Source: a virus
DNA: 64,000 nucleotides
Direction: 5' to 3' (one strand)
IMG/VR virus record: IMGVR_UViG_3300022539_000610
Location: 1 to 64,000 of that record
Shown: piece by piece, positions 2,699 through 50,300 of the stretch
How positions within the stretch are numbered: position 1 is the stretch's first letter
Layout: each line of letters starts with the position of its first letter
The notes under the pieces: generated by a model
The model's database searches: none
Seen by the model: the letters and a program-made list of their open reading frames with translations, nothing else
Told to the model about the DNA's origin: nothing
Translations under genes and position numbers: made by a program

Positions 2699-2716
2699 CT
2701 CTTCTCTCCTCCTTTA

Positions 2717-2722
2717 ATTATA
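2717..2722 (-). promoter_or_regulatory. -10-like TATAAT, member of a repeated promoter motif
   Basis: TATAAT on the minus strand about 10 nt before the ribosome binding site of the gene starting at 2698. It is one of eight sites of the form (T/C)NTATAATNAAAG placed 20-40 nt before gene starts. No clear -35 box is visible. Confidence 0.5.
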
Positions 2723-2749
2723 ATAATCTTTACTATGATTTATAAACAT

Positions 2750-3460: not shown

Positions 3461-3482
3461 AATTTCTCCTCTTTCTAAATGT

Positions 3483-3749
3483 TTATTCCCAAGTTCCCTC
3501 GCCCCATTTGCTTTGTCCCCAGATGAAGGGAGCAGGGGTTGTGTCATCTTCTTCTGGTTCTTCATTTACTTCCTCATCTGGTTCTTCATTTACTTCCTCA
3601 TCTGGTTCTTCATTTGGCTGTGAAGGTTGCCCATTGATAACTGGATCTACCATTACGTCCCCATTCTGACCATCCCTATTACTTCCATCATTACAACCGA
3701 CCAATATTAAAACCAACACCAATACAAATAATATACTTATTCTTTTCAT
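3483..3749 (-). CDS. Small lipoprotein with acidic tandem repeats
   Basis: 88 aa. A lipoprotein signal (MKRISILFVLVLVLILVGC) with the lipobox LVGC at residues 16-19 marks Cys19 for acylation. Glu/Asp/Pro repeats (NEEPDEEV and variants) occupy residues 46-70. The start at 3749 is preferred over an ATG 9 nt upstream because AGGAGG is then 10 nt away rather than 1. Probably a membrane-anchored surface or exclusion protein; function unknown. Confidence 0.8.
   Translation of the reverse strand: MKRISILFVLVLVLILVGCNDGSNRDGQNGDVMVDPVINGQPSQPNEEPDEEVNEEPDEEVNEEPEEDDTTPAPFIWGQSKWGEGTWE
3553..3616. repeat. 24-bp tandem repeat within lipoprotein gene
   Basis: About 2.6 copies of a 24-bp unit (ctggttcttcatttacttcc plus tcat on the plus strand) encode the acidic NEEPDEEV repeats. 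In-frame unit length allows copy-number change without frameshift. Confidence 0.75.
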
Positions 3750-3772
3750 ACTAATCATTCCTCCTTTCGTAA

Positions 3773-4438
3773 TTATTTATCTTCTTTCAAACCAATGTAC
3801 TTATGGAGCTGCAAGTTTACAATAGCATCAAATTGCTCCAACTTCTCCAAATACTGAATCAAGTCTTTTGGATCTAACTCTCCATGAAGAGGTGAAAATG
3901 CAAATCTTGCTCCACATCCTTTCCTTTCCAACTCCTTACGAATCAGCACCGCTTCAATACAATCTGCTAAACTTCCTACCACAAACTTAACAAAATCTAA
4001 GCCTCGTAAATGTATGAAGGCTTCCTCATTCATCTTATCTCTCATCCCAGAATTCAACAACTTATAATCAACAACACAAGAACCAACATAATACTCCCTC
4101 CCAAACCCAAAACCTGGCAAAGGAGGATAACAACCATTAGTTTCAACAGAAATCAAAATCCCTTTTAATGTTAATGCTTTTATTAGCAAAAAGAAGTCTG
4201 ACTGGAGTAATGGCTCCCCTCCTGTAATTGTAACTTTTGGACACCTCAACTCCAATACCTTCTCTACAATCTCTTCAACACTCATTTCTTTACCTACACT
4301 GGGGTCTTGAGCATAAAGGGTGTCGCAGTACTTACATTTCAAGTTACAGCCAGCAGTCCGAATAAATGTGGTGAACACCCCCTGATGAAAGCGATCAACT
4401 TCACCTGAAATCGACCGAAAGATACTATATATCTGCAT
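3773..4438 (-). CDS. queE: 7-carboxy-7-deazaguanine synthase (QueE)
   Basis: 221 aa radical SAM enzyme that contracts 6-carboxytetrahydropterin to 7-carboxy-7-deazaguanine. The N-terminal SISGEVDRFHQG segment and the cluster-binding CNLKCKYCD (Cys31, 35, 38) fit QueE. TITGGEPLLQ near residue 70 is the SAM-binding GGEP motif. The start follows directly on the stop of queD, so the two are almost certainly co-translated. Length matches the family. Confidence 0.92.
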   Translation of the reverse strand: MQIYSIFRSISGEVDRFHQGVFTTFIRTAGCNLKCKYCDTLYAQDPSVGKEMSVEEIVEKVLELRCPKVTITGGEPLLQSDFFLLIKALTLKGILISVETNGCYPPLPGFGFGREYYVGSCVVDYKLLNSGMRDKMNEEAFIHLRGLDFVKFVVGSLADCIEAVLIRKELERKGCGARFAFSPLHGELDPKDLIQYLEKLEQFDAIVNLQLHKYIGLKEDK

Positions 4439-4804
4439 TTAATCCCTCCTCCACTCGGCATAGGAGTCCTCTGTTTCATAAAGACGAATTCGAACAAGTG
4501 ACTCATTAAAATAGGGAAGCAACCAATCCCGAATCCACTCAACCAAATTCTCAGCAGTAGAAATGGCTACAATATCATTCAAATCACAATGGTCAACAAC
4601 AGAAAGAACTTCTTTTTTGACTATACGAGTTAGTTCTCTAAAATCAATCACCATTCCTGGGTAAGATTCCAAGCACTCATCTGTTCCCCCTCTGACTTCT
4701 ATAAAAAGTTTGTAAGAATGACCATGCCGGTCTGCGCAACTTCCAGGGTAGTCCGGCAATGAATGAGCTGCCTCAAAAGTAAATCTTTTACATACAGTTA
4801 ACAT
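4439..4804 (-). CDS. queD: 6-carboxytetrahydropterin synthase (QueD)
   Basis: 121 aa, the family's usual size. It converts dihydroneopterin triphosphate to 6-carboxytetrahydropterin. The zinc ligands are visible: AAHSL near residue 13 and DRHGHSY near residue 25, with the nearby catalytic Cys. VIDFREL and DHCDLND near residues 50-75, and the C-terminal YETEDSYAEW, match QueD/PTPS proteins. GGGAGG lies upstream of ATG 4804, and the stop abuts queE. Confidence 0.92.
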   Translation of the reverse strand: MLTVCKRFTFEAAHSLPDYPGSCADRHGHSYKLFIEVRGGTDECLESYPGMVIDFRELTRIVKKEVLSVVDHCDLNDIVAISTAENLVEWIRDWLLPYFNESLVRIRLYETEDSYAEWRRD

Positions 4805-4806
4805 CC

Positions 4807-5163
4807 TTACTCCTCCCTCTTAGGCTTTCCACATGACTGACAAATATTAGTCTTCCTCCAATCAGTCAATAATGCCGGTCTATTCCCTTCCTCATAACAA
4901 ATGCAATACTCTCCCTCAACAACATTCCTTTCTTTCTCCTTTGGTTTGTGTACGACTTTCCCAAACTCTGACTTCGCATACTTCTTAAACCCAGTCAGTT
5001 CAAATTCTTCTGGTTCAACTTTGGTAACATAATGTTTCAAATTCTCAAATCCAACTGCCCGTACAACCTCAGCCCACGCCGACCCGTAATCGTACAAAGA
5101 AATACATTGTAGCGCTACACATATTCCACCATAGAATGCTTTGTCCTTATCGGTTAACCTCAC
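4807..5163 (-). CDS. Small zinc-ribbon-like protein, unknown
   Basis: 118 aa starting at GTG 5163, which overlaps the upstream stop as GTGA. The C-terminus has CICYEE and CQSCGKPK, likely a four-cysteine zinc site. No family recognised. It lies directly before queD, possibly in the same operon. Confidence 0.65.
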   Translation of the reverse strand: MRLTDKDKAFYGGICVALQCISLYDYGSAWAEVVRAVGFENLKHYVTKVEPEEFELTGFKKYAKSEFGKVVHKPKEKERNVVEGEYCICYEEGNRPALLTDWRKTNICQSCGKPKREE

Positions 5164-5390
5164 TTCTCCCCTTCCAGAACAATCCGATATTCAAAAAGCG
5201 TCAACCCTCCATGGCCTGTTAAAGTATGTATTGTTTCACCATGCTGCTCATAAGTCGATTTACCAGCACATAAAAGGTCTCGATCCTTTCTTATCTCCAG
5301 TTCAAGGTCCTCTAATGAGTCAACATCAAACGTTTTTTCACCATAACATCCTACAATACCTAAACGTGTTCCTCCTTCAACCGTAAACAT
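5160..5390 (-). CDS. Unknown 76-aa protein
   Basis: A compact reading frame with good ribosome binding site (GGAAAGGATAT) and a 4-bp overlap with the next gene. Mixed alpha/beta composition with no recognisable motif. Confidence 0.6.
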   Translation of the reverse strand: MFTVEGGTRLGIVGCYGEKTFDVDSLEDLELEIRKDRDLLCAGKSTYEQHGETIHTLTGHGGLTLFEYRIVLEGEK

Positions 5391-5409
5391 ATCCTTTCCT
5401 CCTTCCTCA

Positions 5410-5613
5410 CTAGGTACAAACTTCCTTTATCACAGCAGACAAGGTGAGCACTGCAATACGATACCGATCCACTGCATCAACAAGTTCAGGGTATTGTTTA
5501 CGTAATAAAGGTAATTTTTCCTTCCATTGAACCCACCTTGTCACATCCCCCTTTTCTTCCCAAAAATACCGTACCATATCCAAATCTTCATCTGTAATTT
5601 TTTCAGTCTCCAT
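5410..5613 (-). CDS. Unknown 67-aa helical protein
   Basis: Start METEK at 5613 is chosen because it lies just after the stop of the small membrane gene at 5627 and has GGAAGAAG upstream. The frame extends to 5649 but would overlap that gene. Highly charged and helical; no family seen. Confidence 0.6.
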   Translation of the reverse strand: METEKITDEDLDMVRYFWEEKGDVTRWVQWKEKLPLLRKQYPELVDAVDRYRIAVLTLSAVIKEVCT

Positions 5614-5626
5614 TTCTTCTTCCCAT

Positions 5627-5740
5627 TTAACCATTAAAAACAATATCAAGTAACAAGGCTATAAGAGCCATAATACCCCAAAACCATCCAAAGTTGGCCC
5701 AAAAAGCCATTATAATTAATATCCCTAAAAATATTGTCAT
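5627..5740 (-). CDS. 37-aa single-pass or hairpin membrane protein
   Basis: A strong AAAGGAGG site 4 nt before ATG 5740 precedes a 37-codon frame that is almost entirely hydrophobic and rich in Trp/Phe (FWANFGWFWGIMALIALLL). It would span the membrane once or twice. Tiny phage membrane proteins can be holin-like or act in exclusion; nothing identifies which. Confidence 0.65.
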   Translation of the reverse strand: MTIFLGILIIMAFWANFGWFWGIMALIALLLDIVFNG

Positions 5741-5755
5741 CTTACCTCCTTTCCC

Positions 5756-6004
5756 TCACTTAAGCCGCATCTCTTTCCCTGTCAATGCCATCACAATGTC
5801 TCTAACAGAATCTTCATGTTCTTTTACCATTCTCTTTTGATCCTTCTCAGCTACTTTAGCTTCTTCTTCAGAAGACGAGTGCGCCAGTTGTTGTATACCA
5901 CCTAAATTAGAAAACGCTTCATCTAAAATCTTATGTACCTCATAAGCTTCACCTAAACTCGTAAGACCTTGTCCCATAAAAATAATTTCATGTATCCGTC
6001 TCAT
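5756..6004 (-). CDS. Unknown 82-aa helical protein
   Basis: Charged helical protein with a likely coiled segment in its second half (HSSSEEEAKVAEKDQKR). AAAGGAAAA site upstream of ATG 6004. Function unknown. Confidence 0.6.
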   Translation of the reverse strand: MRRIHEIIFMGQGLTSLGEAYEVHKILDEAFSNLGGIQQLAHSSSEEEAKVAEKDQKRMVKEHEDSVRDIVMALTGKEMRLK

Positions 6005-6018
6005 TTTTCCTTTCCTCT

Positions 6019-6408
6019 TTACCGCTCATAGATACTTTGGTACTCTGGATTCCCAACTAAACGATCTCCAAAACTGTTTGAGAGCCCAAAGCCAGATAAC
6101 AGACCTACTCCATCACAACTCAACATGAGCCCATAAAATTTCTTAAGGAGGAGATCACGATCCTCTGGAACAAACTCAAAAAACCTTTTCATTCTTCTCC
6201 GGAACACTCCAAACTGGGCTTTCTGCTTCCTGTCAGAACATAACTCCTCCAGCTCCAGCACCATCTCAGAAAGACCAACAGCCAACTCTTTAATTGCTTC
6301 ATTAGACCAATATTTTAAGGTAGGAATTGCCTCCATCATTGTAAAAAATGACTTTCCTGGTTTTTGGTTATGAATCGAAAATTCATTAAACAAAATATAA
6401 TTCTCCAT
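6019..6408 (-). CDS. Unknown 129-aa protein
   Basis: Start at 6408 (MENYILF) is set by GGGAGG 6 nt upstream; the longer frame to 6501 runs through the promoter and binding site. Mostly helical, ending in a Gly-rich segment. No family recognised. Confidence 0.65.
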   Translation of the reverse strand: MENYILFNEFSIHNQKPGKSFFTMMEAIPTLKYWSNEAIKELAVGLSEMVLELEELCSDRKQKAQFGVFRRRMKRFFEFVPEDRDLLLKKFYGLMLSCDGVGLLSGFGLSNSFGDRLVGNPEYQSIYER

Positions 6409-38526: not shown

Positions 38527-39531
38527 TTAAATCTTTGACCAATACTCGTCAGGCATTTCTAAGGAAAGCTTAAGTGCCCCAACAGCACCTCCAAACTCAG
38601 GGTCCTGAGTGCACTCAACATTTCCACCTCCATAAGCCTCAAGGCCTTTTTCAACTGCCCGGTCTATGCCCCGGAGTCGTGAGCCCCCTCCAGCTATAAT
38701 GACATTATTACGTAGGTGCTCCTGAAAATCGGCATCAAATGAGCCTACCAGAGCCTGGACAGCTTTACAAATAGGATCGGTCATCTGGAGACAACAATCC
38801 TGCAAAAGTCCAGTAAGATCATAAGTTCCAGGTATTCCCTTCTCTGTTAACGTTACAATAACTTTTTCAGAAATTCCTACATAGCCATATTTCTCCTTGA
38901 GCCTTTGGATAATCTGAGGGGTTAACTGAACACCAGGATACAAGTTTAAAATAGCTTCGATAATTTTGCTGTCAAGGAAGTTCCCTGCAGTAGTGAGGGT
39001 AACTTGATCCCCCTCTTCTGGTAAGCTACCATGTATTCGACATGCATCCACTGTTCCTGCTCCCACATCAACCACCAGACACTCGTCAAACCTATCCATC
39101 CCATAGGCGACGGCAAAGGGCTCTGACACTATCAGAACCTTATCTACTAAGGAGCTACACAGGTCAACAAGAGCCTTTTTGTTATGTATACTTGCCTGAG
39201 CAGGTACTCCTATAGCAGCATAGATCTGGTCACCTTTCCTTTTGTCAGGAATAGCCTGGACAAGCATATCCCTTAAAATAAGGGTGGTTGCCTTGATAGA
39301 AGGTTCATCCTCCTTCATCACTCCATGCTCAAGGGGCCAGACCATGTTGAGAGCAAGCCGATTCTTTATTGCCTCCTGCCCCAGAAGGTAGTCTCCACCT
39401 TTAAGTCTTTTTCTTGATACTACATCCTTTGGGTATCCAATGCAACTCAGTGTTGTCAACCTTGCGCCTGTAGATGTTGCCAATGAAGTCCTGCTAGTCC
39501 CCAAGTCAAATCCGGTGTAAAAAATAGTCAT
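38527..39531 (-). CDS. Actin-like protein (MreB/MamK/ParM-type)
   Basis: 334 aa with the actin-fold phosphate loops: FDLGTSRTSLATS near residue 8, LVVDVGAGTVD near 150, and VIIAGGGSRLRGI near 280. These bind ATP in filament-forming bacterial actins. GTSRTS recalls MamK and MreB more than ParM, by eye. In phages, actin-like filaments can position or segregate DNA. No ParR-like partner gene is evident alongside. Confidence 0.82.
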   Translation of the reverse strand: MTIFYTGFDLGTSRTSLATSTGARLTTLSCIGYPKDVVSRKRLKGGDYLLGQEAIKNRLALNMVWPLEHGVMKEDEPSIKATTLILRDMLVQAIPDKRKGDQIYAAIGVPAQASIHNKKALVDLCSSLVDKVLIVSEPFAVAYGMDRFDECLVVDVGAGTVDACRIHGSLPEEGDQVTLTTAGNFLDSKIIEAILNLYPGVQLTPQIIQRLKEKYGYVGISEKVIVTLTEKGIPGTYDLTGLLQDCCLQMTDPICKAVQALVGSFDADFQEHLRNNVIIAGGGSRLRGIDRAVEKGLEAYGGGNVECTQDPEFGGAVGALKLSLEMPDEYWSKI

Positions 39532-39638
39532 TTTCTTTTTCCTCCTTTTTAAATTCTATTAGATTCAACTATCTGATTTTTCTTTTTTCTGTCACCTCTT
39601 GTGCCATAATATTAGGCTTGAGTAGCCAGTAAGGATTC

Positions 39639-40412
39639 TCATGCAATACTCGAACAGATACCAATACACTCAATTTCTTTTTCCTCTTTGCTGTCGTAAA
39701 AAGAGGACAATTCTTCACGTTCAATTCTTCCCCGAAATGCTTCTAGCGTTTCATCCTTAAAGAATGAAATGTCTTTACCTAAATATTGTCGCACTTCACG
39801 CTCTACACGCGCTCTGTCTGCATATACTTCTGGAAGTTTTTCATATAGAAGTTTCCAATGCTTCTTCCCTGCTCGAACACACCCACCGGAACAGTTGTTA
39901 TGTTTAAAGCCAAGTCTATACAATAGGGGTTCTTCTATCCCCACATTTCTTAAAAAGTCATTTATTTGTTCATTTGTTTTATTCTCTTGTATTAGGGGAA
40001 ATAAGAGTTCTGACTGTTTATCTTTTTTCATTGCCACCATTTGATAAACATCATCCAGTCTATTTGCTCTGTGGGTTTCACCAATTCCAATTCCAAAGAC
40101 TAAGGTGTCCCCATCTTTATAGAACCTCTGAAGCCTTTCTGCTTTTAGAATCCGTGAACAGAATGGCATACGATCGTTAGCTAAGGCATTATTATCATAA
40201 AACAACTCTTCTGGGCTTCTTCCATCTGAGTCTAAAGTTATCTTATGGTCAAAATAATTCTCTAAATCAGAGAGAAATCTATACAGATCAGGGTGTTCCC
40301 ATTTTGTATCGTTGAAATACAAAATGACATCTTCCTTCGGGTATTGTTTGAAAGTCCAATCAGCACACCATGCTGATGCCTTACCCCCGCTTATAGCTAC
40401 AATTACGCTCAT
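39639..40412 (-). CDS. PAPS-reductase-like PP-loop protein
   Basis: 257 aa. SGGKASAWCA near residue 8 is a PP-loop; PFCSRILKAERLQRF near 83 and NNCSGGCVRAGKKHW near 170 match the phosphoadenosine phosphosulfate reductase superfamily, including phage and phosphorothioation-linked (DndC-type) members. Substrate cannot be told. Its sulfur chemistry theme fits the APS kinase and sulfotransferases nearby, though a direct link is inference. Confidence 0.75.
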   Translation of the reverse strand: MSVIVAISGGKASAWCADWTFKQYPKEDVILYFNDTKWEHPDLYRFLSDLENYFDHKITLDSDGRSPEELFYDNNALANDRMPFCSRILKAERLQRFYKDGDTLVFGIGIGETHRANRLDDVYQMVAMKKDKQSELLFPLIQENKTNEQINDFLRNVGIEEPLLYRLGFKHNNCSGGCVRAGKKHWKLLYEKLPEVYADRARVEREVRQYLGKDISFFKDETLEAFRGRIEREELSSFYDSKEEKEIECIGICSSIA

Positions 40413-40443
40413 CTTTCAGTGTCTTAACAAGTTTCTCACTTGA

Positions 40444-40680
40444 TTAATCCTTCGGAAGGAGCTCTCCAAATATTGTAGAACGAACACTTTGGAAAGCATC
40501 TATATAACATGCAGCCATAGTCATTAATTTTTCTTCTCCCCCATCTAATGCAATCTTCTTCTTGCTTCTCCAATGTTTGATACTCCTGTCAAGGTACTCC
40601 ATAATAGTTTCTTTGTCAAAAGGAATTGTGTTACTCATTTTTACCGCCTCTCTAACAGGCGGTGGGTGTGGTGATGCCAT
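40444..40680 (-). CDS. Unknown 78-aa protein
   Basis: AAGGAG 7 nt before ATG 40680; a second start at 40638 is also possible. Helical, with EYLDRSIKHWRSKK. Unknown. Confidence 0.55.
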   Translation of the reverse strand: MASPHPPPVREAVKMSNTIPFDKETIMEYLDRSIKHWRSKKKIALDGGEEKLMTMAACYIDAFQSVRSTIFGELLPKD

Positions 40681-40691
40681 TTTATTACTCC

Positions 40692-41177
40692 TTAAACATC
40701 CAGTAGGTTAACTAAAAGTTTACATGCCTCAATCTCATCCTTTACCCAAGTGTGAACAGTAGCCTGTACAAAAGGATGCTGGCATCGGAGATCATTCCTA
40801 TGATCTTCATGTATTCCAATTACCATTTTCGCAGGATCGTCAAAGTACCAAGCCAACTCATAGATTGTCCCAATGGATGGCTCTTCAGGTGAGTAAATGT
40901 TCATGTTTGCAAGAGCAATAGTTGACCTCCTCACATGCTGCCTATCCTTATGAGGAAGGAGCCCCCAGACCTTCTGATTAAGAGCAATACTTAACCCGTT
41001 CTTTGAAATTCGACCATTTGTCAACACTTTCTGGTTCCATGCACTCTGACATGGATCAATGATAGTTAGATGACTATTAAACTTAGGTTCGTAATTAAAA
41101 AACTCTCTCACTCGCTTTCTCCACCTGTATGTTTCAGGATTTGTTGAAATCTGACCTGCTAAGTATACTATATACAT
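40692..41177 (-). CDS. Nucleoside 2-deoxyribosyltransferase-like protein
   Basis: 161 aa. The MYIVYLAGQIS start, the TIIDPCQS strand, and EPSIGTIYELAWYFD near residue 110 fit the deoxyribosyltransferase/DUF4406-type Rossmann fold, in which the Glu acts as nucleophile. Phage members are implicated in nucleotide salvage or in handling modified nucleotides. Confidence 0.65.
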   Translation of the reverse strand: MYIVYLAGQISTNPETYRWRKRVREFFNYEPKFNSHLTIIDPCQSAWNQKVLTNGRISKNGLSIALNQKVWGLLPHKDRQHVRRSTIALANMNIYSPEEPSIGTIYELAWYFDDPAKMVIGIHEDHRNDLRCQHPFVQATVHTWVKDEIEACKLLVNLLDV

Positions 41178-41207
41178 ACCTCCTCCTACAGTTTAGATTC
41201 TGATTTT

Positions 41208-41600
41208 TCAAACTTCCCTGATTCTTAAATTCTCCTCAATCAAAGCCTGAAAAATAGCTAGTTTCCCTTTATCGTCTACCCTTCCTATGGCTATGTTCAA
41301 AAGTTCACTTATGTTTTTTGAAAGACCTCCAAGCACCCCACCTTGTCGTATGGCATCTAATTCTTTTTGAAGCTGAGTGACTTTGGCTTTCAAAACCCTA
41401 TTCTTCTCAACTACTTTAAGGAACGAATCATATGGTACAGCCTTATGAAAGTAGATCCTCGGATCAGCCTTCAACTGCTTAAAATACTTTGGATTCGCCC
41501 CCGTACTGACAGACGTCTTGGGGTAGATACTAAGTAAAGTTTTAGCTGATATTCTTACCCGTACATTATAAGTATTAGGATTGTATATTGTTAAATACAT
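41208..41600 (-). CDS. Unknown 130-aa protein with coiled coil
   Basis: N-terminal beta-type domain (MYLTIYNPNTYNVRVRI) then a coiled coil at 65-85 (NRVLKAKVTQLQKELDAI) and a helical end. The layout suggests an oligomeric structural or binding protein. Unknown. Confidence 0.55.
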   Translation of the reverse strand: MYLTIYNPNTYNVRVRISAKTLLSIYPKTSVSTGANPKYFKQLKADPRIYFHKAVPYDSFLKVVEKNRVLKAKVTQLQKELDAIRQGGVLGGLSKNISELLNIAIGRVDDKGKLAIFQALIEENLRIREV

Positions 41601-41611
41601 TTCAGCTCTAT

Positions 41612-41812
41612 TTACTTGTTAGAGTTTTTACCAGTACCTGTACACTGTTGTCGTGTTTTTACCCATCCTCTTGTCTCTCTTCTACGTGGTCCATATGTAT
41701 GCAATCCAAGTTCACGAGCATTACTTCGATAGCCACGCCATCCATGTCGTGGAATTAAACCATTCTTTGTAAGCGTTACAGGCATCCAACAATCAGGACA
41801 TAGTATAATCAT
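41612..41812 (-). CDS. 66-aa Cys-containing basic protein
   Basis: LCPDCWMPV near the start and a basic, Gly/Arg-rich remainder with a late CTGTG. Possible zinc-binding nucleic-acid protein. Starts 12 nt after the preceding small gene region. Confidence 0.55.
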   Translation of the reverse strand: MIILCPDCWMPVTLTKNGLIPRHGWRGYRSNARELGLHTYGPRRRETRGWVKTRQQCTGTGKNSNK

Positions 41813-41820
41813 CTAAGAGT

Positions 41821-41988
41821 TCACTCTCTTCTACCTGAGTTAATACCATACTTCTTCTGGTAATAATATACTGGAGACAAGCCTATGTTTAGTCTTTGAG
41901 CAATAATACTTGGTGTTAACCCTTCCTTTGTTAACTTCCTAATACGTTCTATCTTTACCTCTGACAATTTACCAGATCGACCTGCCAT
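41821..41988 (-). CDS. 55-aa helix-turn-helix protein
   Basis: ATG 41988 with GGAG upstream. KIERIRKLTKEGLTPSIIAQ and RLNIGLSPVYYYQKKYG form a resolvase/homeodomain-like helix-turn-helix. Such modules often accompany homing nucleases; here it lies one gene from the IscB element. Possibly a transcription factor. Confidence 0.65.
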   Translation of the reverse strand: MAGRSGKLSEVKIERIRKLTKEGLTPSIIAQRLNIGLSPVYYYQKKYGINSGRRE

Positions 41989-42007
41989 ATCCATCTCCAA
42001 CGAATGT

Positions 42008-42745
42008 TTAAACTAATAAGGTTTTTTGTTTTTTCAAACTATCCCACATCTCATTTCCTTCCTGGGTACGAAAAGTAAGTTTGTTTGATTGAATAAAACG
42101 AGCCCTATCTACAATCTTACCAACAGGACGAGGTTTCTTAACTCCCAAAACACTGGCAAATTTCTCAGGGGTCACGATAATGTCTTTCCCTTCAATATAG
42201 TGAAACACATACTGAGGGTTGCTCTTATGTGCCTCATTAAACAACATAACTGAACGGTTGTAGTTTATCCAAATCTGCTCCAGGCATGTATAAGGATGAC
42301 CTTGTTTCCCTATCCACTGAATGTCTCTCTTCATCTTCCTTCGATAGAAAGATTGGATTATCTCAACAGGGTTTCTAAAAATTAAAACTATAGTGACTTT
42401 TTCCTTCGTATACTGTGAAAGCAAAGGGAGCCATGCCCATATACACAGAGAGTTAATAGGGGCCTTCCAGCCCCAGTTGGTAAAACAAGTTAGAGAGTTC
42501 TGAAGTTGAGCTTGCATTTCTTTCTTCACACTTGATGAAGGAGAGATGTCAGTGTGGTCAAATTTCAATCCATATCTATGCACACCACTGGAGCGAAGGA
42601 TCTTGTGAGAGATAGGTCTGTACTTCCTATTCTCACCCAGGAAGTCAATGGGAACACCTCCACTCATATCCACTCCACAATGGTGAAGGTATCGAGAAGC
42701 CAAAGATGTACCGCTTCCATGCATCCCGCAAAGGTAAAAAATCAT
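42008..42745 (-). CDS. Sulfotransferase-like P-loop protein
   Basis: 245 aa from ATG 42745, 5 nt after the iscB stop. The 5'-phosphosulfate loop is LCGMHGSGTSLA (residues 5-16) and the 3'-phosphate site is VLIFRNPVEIIQSFYRR (near 115), as in PAPS-dependent sulfotransferases. It would sulfate a glycan or similar acceptor. Its first 11 codons are repeated, with mostly synonymous changes, at 44227-44195 on the far side of the IscB element. The ribosome binding site is weak (GGGTATAAAAGCA), consistent with a rebuilt 5' end. Confidence 0.72.
   Translation of the reverse strand: MIFYLCGMHGSGTSLASRYLHHCGVDMSGGVPIDFLGENRKYRPISHKILRSSGVHRYGLKFDHTDISPSSSVKKEMQAQLQNSLTCFTNWGWKAPINSLCIWAWLPLLSQYTKEKVTIVLIFRNPVEIIQSFYRRKMKRDIQWIGKQGHPYTCLEQIWINYNRSVMLFNEAHKSNPQYVFHYIEGKDIIVTPEKFASVLGVKKPRPVGKIVDRARFIQSNKLTFRTQEGNEMWDSLKKQKTLLV
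42713..42745 (-). repeat. 33-bp imperfect direct repeat, right copy (sulfotransferase start)
   Basis: 26 of 33 bases match 44195-44227. Six of the seven differences are in codons that stay synonymous or nearly so; only Leu3-to-Phe3 changes the protein. Marks the probable right boundary of the IscB element. Confidence 0.8.
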
Positions 42746-42750
42746 TGCTT

Positions 42751-43932
42751 TTATACCCACACCAAAGTTCTGGAATGAAAAATCCAACTATCCAACTTTC
42801 CTACCACCCTATCAAAACCCCTTCCTGTAGAATCCTTTAAGCCGACAGAACTACCCCCATGCCATACTTCATAAATGCTATCAACTAATTTAATTAAATC
42901 CTTCGGTTGGTGAAAGTATCGTTGTTTTCTGATATTAATTCCATCTCTTCTCTGGATTTGCAATCGCCGATTATTCTTTCTTCTTTGGATTACACTGAAT
43001 GGTTTAGATCTAGTTTGCTTCGTTCCACTCGCTATAACGAAGGCATCATTTATATGTGACTTTTCCAAACCTAGATTCACTCTGTTTACTTTCGTTAAGT
43101 AGCCATACGTTCTTTCGATTTCGGGATACCATTTAGTGAATATACTTCTAATGATATTCATAAAAGAGGATTCTTTGTATTGTCTGGCCTTCTTCAACCT
43201 ATGTTCTAAATGTTGCTTATGCAACTTATCATGGCAACTCACATGAAGAAGGGCTCTGTTCTTGGGTCTATCTGTTCCCCCTTTACTTCTAGGTATGATA
43301 TGATGTAATTTCCATGGATCACTTTTCCTATATAGTTTACTACAGAGTTGACATCTACTTTTCTCTCTGGCTAAAACATACTCCTTTATGTTTTGGTATC
43401 CATACAAGTCCCCTTGCTGATACCCAGTGCCTTCGATGTCTGGATTTTCAAGTTTTTGGATATCAAAATTACCTAATTCAACAATTGTTTTAGATATAGG
43501 GAGAAAATCTTTTAACTTTTCTATGACTCTGAAATGGGTTCTAGTTCTCCTTTCTACTGAAGGGGGTAGCCAACCTTCTTTCCTTCTTCTATTGTTGAAT
43601 CTTGGTTCCCGATGTCTTAGTTTACCCCTACGATGCACTCGGTACATTCTACGATCGTCAAGTCGTCTTTTCGTATTACTGTCTACTCTCACCTCACCAC
43701 TAATTAGTTCTTCTTTCTTGGATACACAGGAAAAACCAATGTATTCATAGCCAGAGTCGATGCCGCAGGAAACATCCTGGGTATATTCCTTAGAATCATA
43801 AAGGAGCTGAATAGTGAAAGGTTTTCTCTTTACAACCTTTGCTTTGTCTTCTTTCAACAACAATCTGGCCACAACAGACCATGTTGGCATCAAAGGCTTT
43901 CCAGATTTTGATAAAACAAATACTTCTTTCAA
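42751..43932 (-). CDS. iscB: IscB RNA-guided nuclease
   Basis: 393 aa from TTG 43932 (GGAGG 5 nt upstream; TTG 43944 is in-frame but precedes that site). Domains in order: PLMP domain (SKSGKPLMPT, residues 8-17), RuvC-I (CGIDSG, Asp59), arginine-rich bridge helix (RRLDDRRMYRVHRRGKLRHR, 89-108), RuvC-II (VELGNF, Glu152), HNH (CQLC, HHIIPRSKGG near 210-219, Asn225, His234), RuvC-III (SHINDA, His293/Asp296) and a short C-terminal domain. All nuclease residues appear intact. IscB proteins, ancestors of Cas9, cut DNA with an omega-RNA guide, here encoded just upstream. Confidence 0.93.
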   Translation of the reverse strand: MKEVFVLSKSGKPLMPTWSVVARLLLKEDKAKVVKRKPFTIQLLYDSKEYTQDVSCGIDSGYEYIGFSCVSKKEELISGEVRVDSNTKRRLDDRRMYRVHRRGKLRHREPRFNNRRRKEGWLPPSVERRTRTHFRVIEKLKDFLPISKTIVELGNFDIQKLENPDIEGTGYQQGDLYGYQNIKEYVLAREKSRCQLCSKLYRKSDPWKLHHIIPRSKGGTDRPKNRALLHVSCHDKLHKQHLEHRLKKARQYKESSFMNIIRSIFTKWYPEIERTYGYLTKVNRVNLGLEKSHINDAFVIASGTKQTRSKPFSVIQRRKNNRRLQIQRRDGINIRKQRYFHQPKDLIKLVDSIYEVWHGGSSVGLKDSTGRGFDRVVGKLDSWIFHSRTLVWV

Positions 43933-43949
43933 ACTGTCCTCCAATTATA

Positions 43950-44210
43950 TACTCTACTTCTAAGAGTAGGTTGATTCCCTTCGTCAATGTTATCTTATGG
44001 TTTTTATTTACTACACTAAGACTTTCATCTTTATTTAATAGTAAATCGCAGAGTTCGGAACTAGGGAGGCATTCCGAAGTGCCTATATCATTCACAAGTA
44101 ACGTAGTACACGAAGTACTTAGACTAACCACCTCTTACGACATACATCACTGTATGTGCCTAAACCCCTGAGTTTATTAGGGTTTAGGTAGGTGGCTCCC
44201 ATGCATGCCA
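43950..44210 (-). ncRNA. Omega-RNA (HEARO) of IscB, with 5' guide
   Basis: Gene-free region upstream of iscB with an elaborate fold: CCACCT/AGGTGG (44190-44195 with 44128-44133) encloses CCTAAACCC/GGGTTTAGG and CATACA/TGTATG stems. Next come an AGTAC/GTACT hairpin and GGCA-CTTCGGAA-TGCC, whose loop TTCGGAA is complementary to TTCCGAA at 44060-44054, a pseudoknot. AT-rich stems follow down to iscB. Position and architecture match HEARO. The 16 nt before the scaffold (44210-44195) would be the guide. Exact ends are estimates. Confidence 0.87.
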
Positions 44211-44227
44211 CAAAGATAGAGGATCAT
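44195..44227 (-). pseudogene. 5' fragment of an interrupted sulfotransferase gene (and guide source)
   Basis: ATG 44227 overlaps the upstream gene's TGA as ATGA, the normal coupling here. It begins MILYLCGMHGS, the same P-loop start as the gene at 42745, then runs into the omega-RNA scaffold and stops. So the IscB element appears inserted after codon 11 of a sulfotransferase gene, and its guide is made of that gene's codons 6-11. Confidence 0.82.
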
Positions 44228-44469
44228 TTTACAAATGCTGGATGAATTGGATGTACTGCCTTTTCCCAATATAAATCTAAAGCTGCTACAAACAAGGAGT
44301 GCACTTTTTGAACCTCTTCTTCAGTCTTGTATGAAAAGAACTCAAACACTCCAGAACAATACTTAAATCCCCAAGTCCAATAAAATTTCTCTTCTTCAAC
44401 TGAGTACACATTCTGCACATGAGGAAGAACAGCATGATACCGATTGTCAATTTGAAATGTTGATTTCAT
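44224..44469 (-). CDS. Unknown 81-aa protein
   Basis: AAAGGAGATAAAA precedes ATG 44469. Mixed fold with FYWTWGFKYCSGVFEFFS. Its TGA overlaps the ATG of the interrupted sulfotransferase, so the two were one translational unit before the insertion. Confidence 0.6.
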   Translation of the reverse strand: MKSTFQIDNRYHAVLPHVQNVYSVEEEKFYWTWGFKYCSGVFEFFSYKTEEEVQKVHSLFVAALDLYWEKAVHPIHPAFVK

Positions 44470-44490
44470 TTTTATCTCCTTTCTAATAGG

Positions 44491-44574
44491 TGGTGGGTGA
44501 GAGAGGAATCGAACCTCTATGCTTTCGCAACGACTTTACAGGCCATGGGACTCACCACACTGTCCAACTCACCC
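44491..44574 (-). tRNA. tRNA-Tyr (GUA), CCA encoded
   Basis: 84 nt. Acceptor GGGTGAG/CTCACCC (7 bp), D-arm GGAC...GTCC, anticodon loop CTGTAAA giving GUA, a short class II variable arm (GC-GAAA-GC), T-arm AGAGG-TTCGATT-CCTCT, discriminator A and encoded CCA. Lies between two small genes, 17 nt after one and 2 nt before another on the strand. Confidence 0.9.
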
Positions 44575-44575
44575 G

Positions 44576-44710
44576 TTAGATTTGTTTTTGTCTTAGCAAC
44601 CATCTAAGAGGCTCTAATAATCTCCATAATATTCTGTATGCCCTTCCTCTAATCTTAATGTAGCCATATGTTTCTCCTGGTAACGGTTCCATTTTCGTTG
44701 CCATTCCCAT
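44576..44710 (-). CDS. 44-aa basic protein
   Basis: AAAGGAGGATAATA precedes ATG 44710, with a TATAAT-type promoter just upstream. Product is basic and helical (AYRILWRLLEPLRWLLRQKQ), possibly amphipathic. Ends 1 nt before the tRNA-Tyr gene. Unknown. Confidence 0.55.
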   Translation of the reverse strand: MGMATKMEPLPGETYGYIKIRGRAYRILWRLLEPLRWLLRQKQI

Positions 44711-44734
44711 TATTATCCTCCTTTCTCACCTTTT

Positions 44735-44740
44735 ATTATA
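44735..44740 (-). promoter_or_regulatory. -10-like TATAAT of the repeated promoter motif
   Basis: TCATTATAATAAAAGG on the minus strand, 25 nt before the gene at 44710 and upstream of tRNA-Tyr. Confidence 0.55.
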
Positions 44741-44751
44741 ATGATTTTGAC

Positions 44752-45348
44752 TTAGATTTCTAATCCCATTTTTCTGCCTACTTTTTCAAGATAGGAGATT
44801 ATTTTATTTACTGATTCCTCAATGGTTTCTTTATCAGTCGTAACTGTTATTTCAGGGTCTTGTGGTTCTTCGTATGGAGCAGAGATACCAGTGAATTCTA
44901 GGATCTCCCCGGCCCTTGCCTTTTTATAAAGACCTTTCATATCCCTCTCTTCACAGGCCACTAAGGTACATTTGCAAAAGATCTCTATAAATTCACTTTT
45001 ATTAGCCAGATCTCTTGCCTTTTTTCTATCTACCCTGTATGGTGATATAAATGCTGTCATGTTGATGACTCCAGCCTGACTAAAGAGATGAGCCACTTCA
45101 CCGATTCTCCTAATGTTTTCCTCCCGATCCTTGGGTGAAAATCCTAGGTCTCTGTTCAGACCATGCCTGATATTATCCCCATCTAAGACAAAGGTGATGT
45201 GTCCGGCCTCATAAAGCCTCTTTTCTACTTCAACAGCCAGGGTGGATTTACCTGAACAAGAAAGACCCGTAAACCACAGGGTAACTCCTTTTTCCCTATT
45301 GACTATAGGGTCATGCCATGTGATGTTTTGACTTTTTGGATTATCCAT
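44752..45348 (-). CDS. cysC: Adenylylsulfate (APS) kinase
   Basis: 198 aa. [11 protein letters not shown] (near 29) is the P-loop; [11 protein letters not shown] (near 56), [28 protein letters not shown] and the lid [20 protein letters not shown] follow, all typical of CysC. It phosphorylates APS to PAPS, the sulfate donor for sulfotransferases. No ATP sulfurylase is seen here, so APS would come from the host or from elsewhere in this genome. Three sulfotransferase-like genes lie within 18 kb. Confidence 0.93.
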
Positions 45349-45386
45349 TTCTTCTGGTAGCGGTTTGATATTGTCCTCCTTTCTTT

Positions 45387-45392
45387 ATTATA
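45387..45392 (-). promoter_or_regulatory. -10-like TATAAT before the APS kinase gene
   Basis: CTACTATAATAAAGAAAGGAGG on the minus strand; about 38 nt before ATG 45348. Confidence 0.5.
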
Positions 45393-45399
45393 GTAGTTT

Positions 45400-46266
45400 T
45401 CAAGTAAAATCTCTTAATTTTTCCCCTAATTCAATAGATGGGCGGACATCATCAATACCAAACCCTTTTCCATCTAAAATCCCTTGGTAAATCTCAGTGT
45501 GAAGATCCTTAAATGATCTATCAAGAGCAACTTTTTTTCCATCAATTATCATTTGACGAAAAGGTTGGAACCCCTCTGCACCATCTTCCTCGTTAATAGA
45601 GAGGAACAAATCTACTGCTGTCCTCTCTAATTGAAGGAGGCACTGGAGACTTCTATCTGTCCGTTTCTCAATACTAAATTCCTGCACAGGCCCAAACAAC
45701 CAGAGCAGTAAATCTAGAATGTGAGCTCCAATGTTCAATGCTAAACCTCCAGATTTCTTGATGTCCCCCTTCCAAGAAAAATCATACCATGGGCCACGAG
45801 GAGTAACATACTTCACAGTAACTAAACGAGGATAGAAATTATCTATTTGTCGCAATCTTTGTACATCTGGATGAAGCCGAAGTTGTAAAACTGAGTAAAC
45901 TCGTTGTCCAGTCTCCTGCTCCAACTGAGCTAAATAATCAAGATTCTCTGGGTTAATAGAAAGAGGCTTCTCACAGATCACATCACACCCCAGTTTCATA
46001 CCAAACCGACTGTGGGCCTCATGTAAGTAGTTAGGTGAGCAGACCGAAACATAATCGATCTGCTGTTTTGTACCCCTCAGTTTATTAACATATCTATCAA
46101 AAGCATCAAACTGAGTAAAGAAATTACATTTAGGAAAATAGCTATCAAGGATACCAACAGAGTCGTTAGGGTCAATAGCAGTAACTAACACGTTTCCTGT
46201 GTCCCGGATAGCCTTCATGTGTTTGGGCGCTATGAAACCGGCAGCTCCTATTAGAGCAAAATTCAT
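45400..46266 (-). CDS. Gfo/Idh/MocA-family sugar dehydrogenase
   Basis: 288 aa. Rossmann start FALIGAAGFIAPKH, YVSVCSPNYLHEAH and the catalytic-lysine motif CEKPLSINPENL (near 98) define the family. The size and context fit WlbA/WbpB-type nucleotide-sugar 3-dehydrogenases that supply 3-keto sugars to a DegT aminotransferase, such as the one at 49.3 kb. Exact substrate not determinable. Confidence 0.8.
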   Translation of the reverse strand: MNFALIGAAGFIAPKHMKAIRDTGNVLVTAIDPNDSVGILDSYFPKCNFFTQFDAFDRYVNKLRGTKQQIDYVSVCSPNYLHEAHSRFGMKLGCDVICEKPLSINPENLDYLAQLEQETGQRVYSVLQLRLHPDVQRLRQIDNFYPRLVTVKYVTPRGPWYDFSWKGDIKKSGGLALNIGAHILDLLLWLFGPVQEFSIEKRTDRSLQCLLQLERTAVDLFLSINEEDGAEGFQPFRQMIIDGKKVALDRSFKDLHTEIYQGILDGKGFGIDDVRPSIELGEKLRDFT

Positions 46267-46364
46267 CTTACTCCTCCTATACCACCGACAGCTTGTTGTG
46301 GGTTTGCTTCTACACGCACATTAGTTGCTTTCGCATATGCTCTCAGATAATCACTACTTTTCAT
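46263..46364 (-). CDS. 33-aa frame coupled on both sides
   Basis: ATG 46364 overlaps the upstream TGA (ATGA) and its own TGA overlaps the next ATG. The product (SSDYLRAYAKATNVRVEANP) is hydrophilic, and its end also encodes the AGGAGG site for the next gene. Possibly a small real protein, possibly a coupling frame. Confidence 0.45.
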   Translation of the reverse strand: MKSSDYLRAYAKATNVRVEANPQQAVGGIGGVR

Positions 46365-47272
46365 AACCTGCCCAGAATTTCTTGGAATTGCTCTACTCTA
46401 TTTAAGTCACTATGCCGTTTGCGTACAATAGCCATAGCTTTTACCCTCATTTCCATATAACCTTCTGGGTCGGACAAAACATTCCTTATCTGACTGAATA
46501 CATTGGCTTTTGTGATTGGAACATAGTGGACACCAGCCTCAAGTCCCATCACACCTAATTCTGAAAGTTCCTCCGCTAACATCAATACCCCAGCCGCCGG
46601 AATTTCAAAATATTTTGATACAGGAGCATCTTCAACTCCCTGTAGTCGTATATCATCTCGATAACTCCCACCTGTTGCAATAGCACAATAATATTTGTTG
46701 AGTAATTCAGGATACTTTTTAAATGGAACTCTTGGGAGCATAATTTCTAGTTGCGAAGTTTTGTGATTTTTAATATGCTCCCTTAAAGGGTAATATCTAT
46801 TTATAGAACCAAGCATTAAACACTTCATTATAGGATTGGGAAGAATTTGTAGTTTTGCGTATTTCTCATACGGAAAAAAGAAATAAGGAAAATGTATATA
46901 CTTAGAAACATATTGAGGATAGCCCTTCTTAAATGCTTCAATGCCTGCACCTATAATTACATCAAATCTATCAAACAATATATCCTTATTCTTTTGGCAT
47001 TCTTCACTTGCCCAACAATGTAAATCTTCAAAATAACCAATGAGCTTAACCTTCGAATCAAGTAAGCCTGGGGGTATTCCAGGTCTATTATGGTATGGTA
47101 CCGCATAGATAATTGCTACATCGAGACCATCCAAGTTAGGGGCATCTGTGTACACAATCGGAAACTTATACTGTTTGACCATTCTACTAAACAAGAATTT
47201 ACCCCTCTGGGATTGGACCCCTTTTTCATGGCGTCTCTTATAAAACGTGGGTATTATAATCGCTCCCTTCAT
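46361..47272 (-). CDS. Glycosyltransferase-like protein (GT-B/CgeB type)
   Basis: 303 aa. No N-terminal hallmark, but the C-terminus has PVSKYFEIPAAGVLMLAE followed by GVHYVPI and a final helix (VRKRHSDLNRVEQF), the pattern of CgeB-like GT-B enzymes where the Glu contacts the sugar nucleotide. Likely adds a sugar to the glycan; donor unknown. Confidence 0.65.
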   Translation of the reverse strand: MKGAIIIPTFYKRRHEKGVQSQRGKFLFSRMVKQYKFPIVYTDAPNLDGLDVAIIYAVPYHNRPGIPPGLLDSKVKLIGYFEDLHCWASEECQKNKDILFDRFDVIIGAGIEAFKKGYPQYVSKYIHFPYFFFPYEKYAKLQILPNPIMKCLMLGSINRYYPLREHIKNHKTSQLEIMLPRVPFKKYPELLNKYYCAIATGGSYRDDIRLQGVEDAPVSKYFEIPAAGVLMLAEELSELGVMGLEAGVHYVPITKANVFSQIRNVLSDPEGYMEMRVKAMAIVRKRHSDLNRVEQFQEILGRL

Positions 47273-47988
47273 GGTTTCCTTGCCTTTATTCTCATATAAT
47301 ACCTGGGGGTCTTCAGTCCCATTGTTTCTAACAGCATTAGTACTTTCGTAAATGTATCAGGCAAAGAAGGATGGTGGCCCTCTACTTGAATGTCTTTAAA
47401 CCCAATTGTAGCTAAAACATATTTGATTGCTCTAGCTTCAAGACCCCTCGAATGGTGATACTCACTAAGTTTTTCAAGTGCCCTTTCACTGGTAGATAAA
47501 GTCTTTTTTCTTCTACCAAGAAAAGCCCGTCGAAACTTGAGCCACCAACCAAACCAAGAGTGAAACCGAGCATTTGAATCATTATCAGTAATTAACCAAC
47601 CACCAGGGGCAAGAACTCGATACGCTTCTTGAAGCCCTTGATCCCACCTATACAAATGGTGAAGGACAGAATAAGCAGTCACCACCCCAAATGTATCACC
47701 TGCAAAAGGAAGTTGAAAGCAAGATGCTTGAAGAACCTGTGAGTACCTATGAGCTAAATCAAGCATACCAAAGGAAATATCAACTCCTATCGCCTCTTGG
47801 TAGTGTGAGTGGACTAAATTAAGAATCTTTCCAGTCCCTGTTCCTATATCTAATAGACGAATATTCTTAGGTGCCAATCCATACAGGCACTGTAAAAATC
47901 CTTCATCTATTGGAGCAGTGGTATCATCGTATCGGCCGGCTATCTGGTCATGAAACTCCCGATTAGCCTGTTCAATGCCTTTACGCAA
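47269..47988 (-). CDS. Class I SAM-dependent methyltransferase
   Basis: 239 aa. LLDIGTGTGKILN (near 45) is motif I, GVDISFGMLDLA motif II and VLHHLYRWDQGLQEAYRVLAPGGWL covers motifs post-II/III. Methyltransf_11-like. Probably methylates a sugar or lipid carrier; overlaps neighbours by 4-8 nt. Confidence 0.82.
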   Translation of the reverse strand: MRKGIEQANREFHDQIAGRYDDTTAPIDEGFLQCLYGLAPKNIRLLDIGTGTGKILNLVHSHYQEAIGVDISFGMLDLAHRYSQVLQASCFQLPFAGDTFGVVTAYSVLHHLYRWDQGLQEAYRVLAPGGWLITDNDSNARFHSWFGWWLKFRRAFLGRRKKTLSTSERALEKLSEYHHSRGLEARAIKYVLATIGFKDIQVEGHHPSLPDTFTKVLMLLETMGLKTPRYYMRIKARKP

Positions 47989-48661
47989 ATTGGCACCTGG
48001 TGTTAAACATTAAGTCTACCATCGAAAGATTCTCTACAAACTCCCCTCCCCATAACTGCAGATAGATTGGGTGGACAAAATCCTGATACTGCAACTGTAT
48101 CCCTGCCTTTTTGAAAACTTCCTCATCCATATAACGTTGTGAGCCCTTACCCGTCCCAGTAAGGTAAGTGTCAGCTTTTACCTCCTTAACTATTTGCATT
48201 ATCTTATCTAAGCCAGATCTCTCTATTCCATCACTCAGTTTGGAGGAGAAAACTAATTCTGCTCTTATATCTAACACCTTATTCATAACTCTAATTATCT
48301 CACAATTCAGATCCACTAACTTAGTCCACTCCTTTGCATAGATTTCTCTAAATACATCAATATACTCTGAGTAATATTTTGCCTTCCTATAAGCAAAGTC
48401 AATCGACTTTAAATGCTTCTTCCTCCAATTATCTGTAGTGACAATTTCAACCTCATTAATATTCTTAAAATCACCCTTGCCCAAAACAGGAACAGTTAAC
48501 CATGTTGTTCCATTTGGTGTTTTTATTCTCGTTCTGGTAACGTAACTCTTACCTCGCACAAGCTGAACATCGTCAAAAATAACAAAAACATCTGATAAGG
48601 CCATTTTGTGAAAAAGGCCTACCCAAGGAAGATAATTAGGTTGATGAACGGAAACAATCAT
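47981..48661 (-). CDS. WbqC-like protein
   Basis: 226 aa. SVHQPNYLPWVGLFHKM at the N-terminus and FDDVQLVRGKSYVTRTRIK define the WbqC family, found in O-antigen and capsule clusters with aminosugar genes. The C-terminal GTGKGSQRYMDEEVF also fits. The activity of the family is not firmly established. Confidence 0.85.
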   Translation of the reverse strand: MIVSVHQPNYLPWVGLFHKMALSDVFVIFDDVQLVRGKSYVTRTRIKTPNGTTWLTVPVLGKGDFKNINEVEIVTTDNWRKKHLKSIDFAYRKAKYYSEYIDVFREIYAKEWTKLVDLNCEIIRVMNKVLDIRAELVFSSKLSDGIERSGLDKIMQIVKEVKADTYLTGTGKGSQRYMDEEVFKKAGIQLQYQDFVHPIYLQLWGGEFVENLSMVDLMFNTRCQFA

Positions 48662-49263
48662 TTATAAATAAAAACCGTAAAATCGTTAACTCTATAATCA
48701 TGCCGAAGCACAACCTTGGAACTGAGTACAAAAGCCATATCTAAAACTCGTGAAGGAGCTGCATAATACACACCAGGCATGCGACTTTTACTGGTACGGC
48801 TTAAAAAATTTACCCCCATACCTACTTTACAGACCTCAAACATCTTAGTCAATATAGTCCTTACATAAGAGTGCCAATCCGGGAATTCTAAACCGAACAA
48901 GCCTGAAGCAATCACATAGTCGTACTGTTTCACAGAAAAGCTGAAGATGTCAGAAACTTGAAATTCAAAATCTGGGTACCTTACACTCGCCTCTCTTACC
49001 ATACCTTCAACGATGTCAATTCCAATATACCTTTTAGGCTTTATTTCTTCTCTGTATATATAGCCTGCAAAATCTCCAAATCCACATCCTACGTCCAACA
49101 AAGCACAATTATTTAAATCTCCAATAGATCCTAAAACTTCAAATCTCACAGATTGTGATTCCTTATCACCATAATGTATGGCTTTCAACGTGGGACCATA
49201 AGTTGCAAGGGCTCTCTCAAAAACTTTACGGCGAAATTTCATATTTTCATCTAAAGTATTCAT
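48658..49263 (-). CDS. SAM-dependent methyltransferase
   Basis: 201 aa. LLDVGCGFGDFAG (near 55) motif I, GIDIVEGMVREA motif II, YDYVIASGLFG motif IV. Overlaps the aminotransferase gene as ATGA. Likely modifies a glycan residue. Confidence 0.82.
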   Translation of the reverse strand: MNTLDENMKFRRKVFERALATYGPTLKAIHYGDKESQSVRFEVLGSIGDLNNCALLDVGCGFGDFAGYIYREEIKPKRYIGIDIVEGMVREASVRYPDFEFQVSDIFSFSVKQYDYVIASGLFGLEFPDWHSYVRTILTKMFEVCKVGMGVNFLSRTSKSRMPGVYYAAPSRVLDMAFVLSSKVVLRHDYRVNDFTVFIYK

Positions 49264-50300
49264 AACTCCTCTAACACACTATTAGCAACATACTCAACTT
49301 CACTCAATTTCAATGTCGGGTATATCGGAAGTGAAACCACCTCTCTCATAAGAGCTTCAGTTGATGGAAAGTTCCGACTGTTCAAATCTAACAATCTATG
49401 TAGAGGTTGGTAAACACCATTACCACATTCAATTCCTTTCTTTTTCATTCGATCTTTAAATTTATTAATATCTCCTTTTATCCTTATAGCAAACCTATAG
49501 TAAGCAGGTTGTGCCACATCATCATAAACAGGAAGCAATATTCTTGACTCATTTTTCAACAATTCAACATACCTATTAAAACGAATTCTTCTTGCTGCAA
49601 CAAAGTCATCTAATTTCGTAAGCTGGATAATTCCCATAGCTGCTGCCATATCCGTCATTTGATAACTATAATACATCCTGGTAATCAATTGTCTAATTCT
49701 ATGTATGGTTTCTTTGTCATCAGATGACACCATTCCACCCGTACCAGTTGTTAACATTTTAGTGGCATAAAATGAAAAAATAGACACCTTGCCAAAAGAC
49801 CCCAGTTTCAATCCTCTATACCTACCACCAATACTTGCTGCACAATCTTCTATAACAGCAACCCCAAACTCTGAAAACTTGTCTATTTCCAGCACAGGAT
49901 AACCAAACATGTGGGGAACGATAATAGCTTTACTTTTCTTCGTAATAGCATCTTTAAAACATTCTAAAGAGATATTCATAGTAGAATAGTCCACATCAAC
50001 TACCACCGGTCGTGCTCCCACAAGCATAATGGCATGCAACAAAGAAATACATGTATAGCTAGGCACAATCACATCAAATCTCTCATCTACACCGAGTGCA
50101 ATTAATGAAAGATGTAATGCAGACATTCCAGTATTCACAGCAACAGCGTACTTCCGACTAACATAGCTACACATCTCGTATTCAAATTGGCGAACCTTAC
50201 TGCCCCATCCAAGATATTCACTTTGAATAACAGCCTCAACTGATTCCATTTCAGCTTGGGCTAAAGTAGGACGTGAATGGGGTATTATTTTATCACCCAT
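49260..50300 (-). CDS. DegT/DnrJ/EryC1/StrS-family sugar aminotransferase
   Basis: 346 aa. NTGMSALHLSL (near 78) binds PLP phosphate, VIEDCAASIGG (near 150) holds the PLP-stacking segment, and FSFYATKMLTTGTGGM (near 180) has the Schiff-base Lys. It would transaminate a keto nucleotide sugar, perhaps the product of the Gfo/Idh enzyme. The N-terminal PHSRPTL and C-terminal YPTLKLSEVEYV match the family. Confidence 0.9.
   Translation of the reverse strand: MGDKIIPHSRPTLAQAEMESVEAVIQSEYLGWGSKVRQFEYEMCSYVSRKYAVAVNTGMSALHLSLIALGVDERFDVIVPSYTCISLLHAIMLVGARPVVVDVDYSTMNISLECFKDAITKKSKAIIVPHMFGYPVLEIDKFSEFGVAVIEDCAASIGGRYRGLKLGSFGKVSIFSFYATKMLTTGTGGMVSSDDKETIHRIRQLITRMYYSYQMTDMAAAMGIIQLTKLDDFVAARRIRFNRYVELLKNESRILLPVYDDVAQPAYYRFAIRIKGDINKFKDRMKKKGIECGNGVYQPLHRLLDLNSRNFPSTEALMREVVSLPIYPTLKLSEVEYVANSVLEEL

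Follow-up and report, generated by a model that had tools for sequence, protein, structure and literature searches.

Putative RNA-guided homing elements of the IscB family that interrupt and rebuild phage and plasmid genes

Free-standing homing endonucleases of phage T4, such as Seg and MobE, are located beside the genes that they cut. Here we describe a locus in a 64,000-nucleotide (nt) stretch of viral DNA (the window; positions 1 to 64,000 of the 114-kb IMG/VR record IMGVR_UViG_3300022539_000610) at which the nuclease gene iscB and its HEARO RNA interrupt a sulfotransferase-like gene, whose start appears to have been rebuilt with recoded codons behind iscB. Spread by double-strand break and recombination would be expected for this element as for the T4 enzymes, but it sits inside its predicted target and rebuilds it.

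IscB/HEARO nucleases are RNA-guided, and a Y1 transposase has been reported at only a few HEARO loci (PMC9755519). The window's element has in common with the IscB/HEARO (OMEGA; RF02033) elements an IscB with PLMP, RuvC and HNH motifs, a HEARO RNA immediately upstream and a guide in the left flank (PMC9755519). It differs in that a recoded start behind iscB makes the interrupted gene whole again, and in that a Y1 transposase (PF01797) gave no match in the 114-kb record, with the controls detected. The closest known parallel is found in fungal mitochondria, where mobile open reading frames (mORFs) place an endonuclease gene in a host gene and supply, for the gene end that is lost, a diverged and largely synonymous substitute; examples include Allomyces macrogynus atp6, Glomus atp6, atp9, cox2 and nad3, and N-terminal duplications in Tremella (PMC3630166; PMC7315562). 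The mitochondrial mORFs have protein-recognised targets and usually replace the C-terminal end, whereas the elements described here are RNA-guided, occur in phages and a plasmid, carry a guide copied from the broken gene and rebuild the N-terminal end. TnpB, an RNA-guided nuclease of IS200/IS605 transposons, has been reported to act as a gene drive in plasmids, cutting uninterrupted copies of the insertion site that its guide records; there, a transposase is present, and the available part of that report does not mention rebuilding of a host gene (PMC11870625). HomeR drives pair an RNA-guided nuclease, placed in the gene that it targets, with a recoded rescue copy (PMC7968924); these are engineered Cas9 systems in Drosophila, whereas the present case is natural DNA, from which home-and-rescue activity is predicted. 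The literature searched, which covered few subscription journals, contained no description of an RNA-guided nuclease followed by a rebuilt and recoded host gene.

The features of the locus, all on the minus strand, are as follows.

44224–44469, minus strand: upstream open reading frame (ORF) of 81 amino acids (aa), with an ATGA overlap with the start of the interrupted gene
44197–44227, minus strand: 5′ fragment of the interrupted gene, 31 nt (ATG...CATGGGA, MILYLCGMHG), truncated by the scaffold
44197–44212, minus strand: predicted 16-nt guide, TGTGGCATGCATGGGA, 5′ of the scaffold; boundary from the HEARO covariance model
43970–44196, minus strand: HEARO (omega-RNA) scaffold, full-length Rfam RF02033
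42751–43932, minus strand: iscB, 393 aa, TTG start preceded by GGAGG; PLMP, RuvC, RRXRR and HNH motifs intact
42713–42745, minus strand: rebuilt, recoded 5′ end of the interrupted gene, matching 44227–44195 at 26 of 33 nt
42715–42730, minus strand: former target in the rebuilt copy, matching the guide with 3 mismatches
42008–42745, minus strand: intact sulfotransferase-like gene, 245 aa, starting MIFYLCGMHGS 5 nt past the iscB stop (42753–42751)

A first-pass annotation of the sequence had placed a HEARO-like RNA 5′ of iscB, and the covariance model bears this out (112.7 bits, E 2.1e-23, model positions 1–211, gathering cut-off 83); the scaffold at 44196–43970 is the sole HEARO in the record. 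IscB itself gives Pfam matches to RRXRR (199 bits, 6.8e-59) and HNH (8.4e-12), carries the catalytic motifs PLMP, GIDSG, VELG, HH and SHINDA, and is 56% identical to the IscB of locus L001. Because the first 31 nt of the interrupted gene (44227–44197) directly precede the scaffold, this gene supplies the guide, for which a length of 16 nt is assumed for IscB. Coupling to the upstream gene, also proposed earlier, agrees with the 81-aa ORF, which ends at 44224 and overlaps the ATG at 44227–44225. The truncated start was likewise correctly recognised, except that the covariance model assigns the last two of its matching bases (GC) to the scaffold. The guide accordingly lies at 44212–44197, 2 nt further 5′ than the 44210–44195 given in the first-pass annotation.

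The restart of the intact gene at 42745 with nearly the same peptide was confirmed, as were the 26 matching bases and the single non-silent codon change. Comparison of the two starts over 10 codons gave 7/30 changed nt; five of the six changed codons are synonymous and one is not (L to F). At a named place, at least 24/31 matches would arise by chance with P ~1e-9. The three mismatches to the guide remain the same after its shift, and fall at bases 2, 11 and 14 counted from the side of the target-adjacent motif (TAM), with GCGGTA next (42714–42709); the scaffold-proximal mismatch is therefore at base 2, not at the third base as first described. Apart from the guide itself, nothing in the window but the downstream copy matches the guide with three or fewer mismatches.

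The arrangement was sought at 182 IscB loci drawn from viral contigs, phages, plasmids and genomes, by translated comparison of the left end (LE; 150–450 nt upstream of iscB, with the left flank and the scaffold 5′ end) with the right end (RE; −60 to +700 nt around the iscB stop), with 4000 cross-locus pairs as controls. Three loci stand out: L034 (score 90), L187 (80) and the window (58). A single control pair (1/4000) reached 58, and its alignment was of another type, longer and looser. A Staphylococcus Silviavirus case (L045/L135) scores 41, within the upper control range, yet its repeat lies exactly at both junctions, and uninterrupted relatives settled the assignment. In a tree of 193 IscB sequences these four positives occupy separate branches, and each has relatives that lack the arrangement. 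A rebuilt but unrecoded gene copy was found at none of the 182 loci.

Several other candidates were rejected. The scores of several archaeal loci come from short hairpin-like motifs at both ends and lie inside the control range, as do those of L036 and L121. The high score of L035 stems from two tandem HEARO-iscB elements (2642–6362) with a small ORF between them; the first of its guides spans a Shine-Dalgarno sequence and start codon (AAGGAGAAAAATATGTATGAGGAATT), and L035 as a fifth case is possible but unproven. At L028, a HEARO RNA (30–241) has no iscB directly behind it and is possibly a stand-alone guide RNA.

The clearest comparison is offered by L034, an IscB element that interrupts an ORF of Ligilactobacillus salivarius on what appears, from a replication gene and plasmid relatives, to be a plasmid rather than a virus. 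In the uninterrupted allele L037 (NZ_CP123973.1), 541 nt align with the left flank of L034 at 98% identity; the identity runs to the exact base before the scaffold, the guide is matched perfectly, and L037 then continues TGGGAACATT. Downstream of iscB, L034 keeps the same Shine-Dalgarno sequence and ATG, followed by a rewritten start. This copy differs from the uninterrupted allele at 19/63 nt around the target and at 2/54 in the remaining ORF (Fisher P 2e-4; for this and the two Silviavirus values below, sites were taken as independent and zones chosen post hoc). The 21 rewritten codons contain nine silent and five non-silent changes. The insertion has also swapped the C terminus of an overlapping upstream ORF (1897–2724) for scaffold-encoded residues.

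In uninterrupted Silviavirus phages such as Romulus, a RusA-like resolvase gene begins ATGACAAATAGTAAAAAAAAAGGTGATG and overlaps the preceding gene. Phages VL10 and CIFT_MFB_MRSA28 instead have the resolvase start up to the scaffold, then iscB, and then the resolvase anew, beginning ATGCTTAATCTGACAAATTCGAAGAAAAAAGGTGATG in VL10. The VL10 guide is matched perfectly by three of five uninterrupted alleles (Romulus, LSA2308 and Koomba-kaat_1, not KSAP7 or V1SC04); over 81 nt at the resolvase site, identity to Romulus is 99% or higher in 30 phage records. A serine codon that is AGT or AGC in all five alleles, and TCG in none, has changed from AGT to TCG in both element-bearing phages. The downstream copy differs at 4/21 nt around the guide site and 22/579 nt of the rest of the gene in VL10 (P 0.01), and at 3/21 and 9/579 nt, respectively, in MRSA28 (P 0.007). 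The scaffold is a diverged HEARO (32–37 bits, under the Rfam cut-off); HEARO is listed in these phages in a report whose available part does not mention a rebuilt gene (PMC13346280). Golestan and JDF86 were rejected as further cases, as a VL10-type IscB lies right behind a stop codon and leaves no gene to rebuild. At L046 and L047, a Staphylococcus-type IscB directly follows the TAA of the upstream gene, and the guide is thus the gene's end and nothing is broken. In phage RSM-J51Sa (L136:2724–3056), a Staphylococcus-type iscB is truncated early and the scaffold retained, a decayed element.

In the fourth case, the phage contig L187, the left end reads ATGCAATATAAATCCTATCAACACGTAGAGCGTTGGGGAAATGAGA and the right end GTGCAATATAAAAGCTATCAACATATTGAGAGGCTTGGAAATGAGA, the latter opening an RNA ligase gene; the N-terminal part of the encoded protein aligns with its counterpart in Cellulophaga phage phi19:3.

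Across these cases the rebuilt copies carry 3, 3, 4, 4 and 5 mismatches to the 16-nt guide, and the changes include switches between the codon families of serine and arginine (AGT to TCG, TCC to AGC, CGT to AGG). The longest stretches repeated exactly between LE and RE measure 8 to 20 nt, which we judge too little for the element to be deleted efficiently. Every rebuilt start keeps a translation signal, either overlap or near-abutment with iscB (window, VL10) or a Shine-Dalgarno-like sequence (L034, L187). As in mORFs, the nuclease lies inside its predicted target gene with the gene end rebuilt and diverged in the window and the three other cases, and in L034 and VL10/MRSA28 the functional copy is most diverged at the target. 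The bases past the target, available from two uninterrupted alleles only (TGGGAA in L037, AGGTGA in Romulus), are too few for a TAM consensus.

As far as can be told, the arrangement is a real and undescribed form of a known element, with four occurrences. From sequence, the best reading of the window is that an IscB homing element probably sits in the first codons of the gene and carries a recoded version of the gene's 5′ end, which would keep the gene functional and protect it from the element's own nuclease. This was proposed in the first-pass annotation, whose reading of the layout as a target with a recoded, rebuilt gene is supported by the three further cases, two of which have perfectly matching uninterrupted alleles; for the window's own gene, a match between the guide and an uninterrupted allele would be expected by analogy with L034 and VL10. 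We lean, if only slightly, towards the broader proposal that phage and plasmid IscB elements have repeatedly become natural RNA-guided home-and-rescue drives, with a gene-start guide, allele conversion and a recoded, immune 5′ end.

A mechanism is proposed where the guide, upstream of the scaffold, is the host gene's own 5′ end. When a genome with an uninterrupted allele shares the cell, the IscB-RNA complex would cut that allele. The break would then be repaired from the element-bearing copy, with homology arms provided by the upstream region on one side and the gene body on the other, and the scaffold, iscB and the rebuilt 5′ end would be copied across. The upstream fragment would itself be safe, the scaffold having replaced its TAM side. 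The intact ORF suggests that the rebuilt end restores both reading frame and translation start, which would make the insertion close to neutral. Judging from the positions of the mostly synonymous changes, the genome would escape cutting because the guide match is broken, and the element would not be lost by recombination because the direct repeat is shortened. In both L034 and VL10 it is the functional copy behind iscB that has changed, and the fragment upstream of the scaffold still equals the uninterrupted allele; had a dead fragment decayed, the opposite would be expected.

Several observations weigh against this reading. Only 4/182 loci are positive, all of them phage or plasmid elements, and the Fisher tests have the limits given above. 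The first-pass annotation had looked to related genomes without the insert at this codon, but no uninterrupted allele of the window's gene was found by protein scan and P-loop DNA pattern in the viral contigs or by protein search in the phages, nor through a scan with the upstream ORF or a search of 40 virus records. The window gave no direct DNA match to the phages, and the sole exact guide match in the scan, at L041, lies outside any such gene and was put down to chance. No uninterrupted allele was found for L187 either, and its five guide mismatches lie at bases 11–16, away from any seed; protection would therefore require an extended seed or an altered TAM. The TAM-side bases of VL10 are unchanged in the rebuilt copy. 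Finally, the non-synonymous changes in L034 (five) and L187 suggest a diverged homologue as the source of the rebuilt end, and because of such non-silent changes we favour recombination with a diverged homologue over selection at silent sites; either source leaves the same outcome.

These changes, which resemble natural divergence, are also what would be expected of a passive patchwork, in which the element landed by transposition or illegitimate recombination and a diverged homologue restored the gene, with no homing or self-protection. The conserved body of the L. salivarius element, which stops near L034 4356–4360, before the rebuilt segment, likewise fits such an origin. Set against it, all four independent cases have a changed guide site and none an unchanged one, and the TCG codon of VL10 is not among the five uninterrupted alleles, though the gene body is ~96% identical. 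We therefore regard this explanation as unlikely, if worth keeping in view. It could also be that the nuclease destroys rival genomes carrying the uninterrupted gene, with the recoded gene as antidote and repair copying incidental. The anatomy would be the same as under homing, as in toxin-antidote drives and phage marker exclusion, and TnpB elements are reported to displace element-free plasmids by cutting (PMC11870625). The long, highly similar homology arms in L034 and VL10 would favour recombinational repair, however, and killing in place of copying seems improbable to us. Tandem paralogues with an element inserted into or between them would account for two alike gene starts 1.5 kb apart, but are highly improbable given that the remainder of the first copy is absent after iscB in 4/4 cases, that L034 and VL10 contradict it, their uninterrupted relatives having just one gene, and that no second copy of the sulfotransferase-like gene was found in the window's 114-kb record.

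The first-pass annotation named the interrupted gene a sulfotransferase, a label with which the P-loop-like GMHGSGTS and a nearby APS kinase agree. Sequence similarity is weak (Pfam Sulfotransfer_3, 12.9 bits against a cut-off of 27; CurM sulfotransferase, E 1.3e-4), and a single-sequence structure prediction had a predicted local distance difference test (pLDDT) score of 34, too low for use. The APS kinase gene (44752–45348) is accompanied by a PAPS-reductase-like gene (39639–40412), sugar/aminotransferase and methyltransferase genes (45400–50300) and a ParM-like partition protein gene (38527–39531); the auxiliary genes across 38527–50300 possibly form a sulfation or surface-glycan cluster. 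The upstream 81-aa ORF has no Pfam or PHROG match, and a tRNA-Tyr (GTA) gene (44491–44574) lies just upstream of it.

Since element-bearing and uninterrupted genomes are both known for Silviavirus and L. salivarius, the question is directly testable, and the TAMs and mismatch tolerance of native IscBs could be read from cases in which guide, target and protected site are all known. If homing with a recoded rescue holds, it would be a natural precedent of recoded-rescue gene drives, and would mean that a nuclease of the lineage ancestral to Cas9 can persist without a transposase through harmless insertion into a gene, restoration of that gene and conversion of rival alleles.
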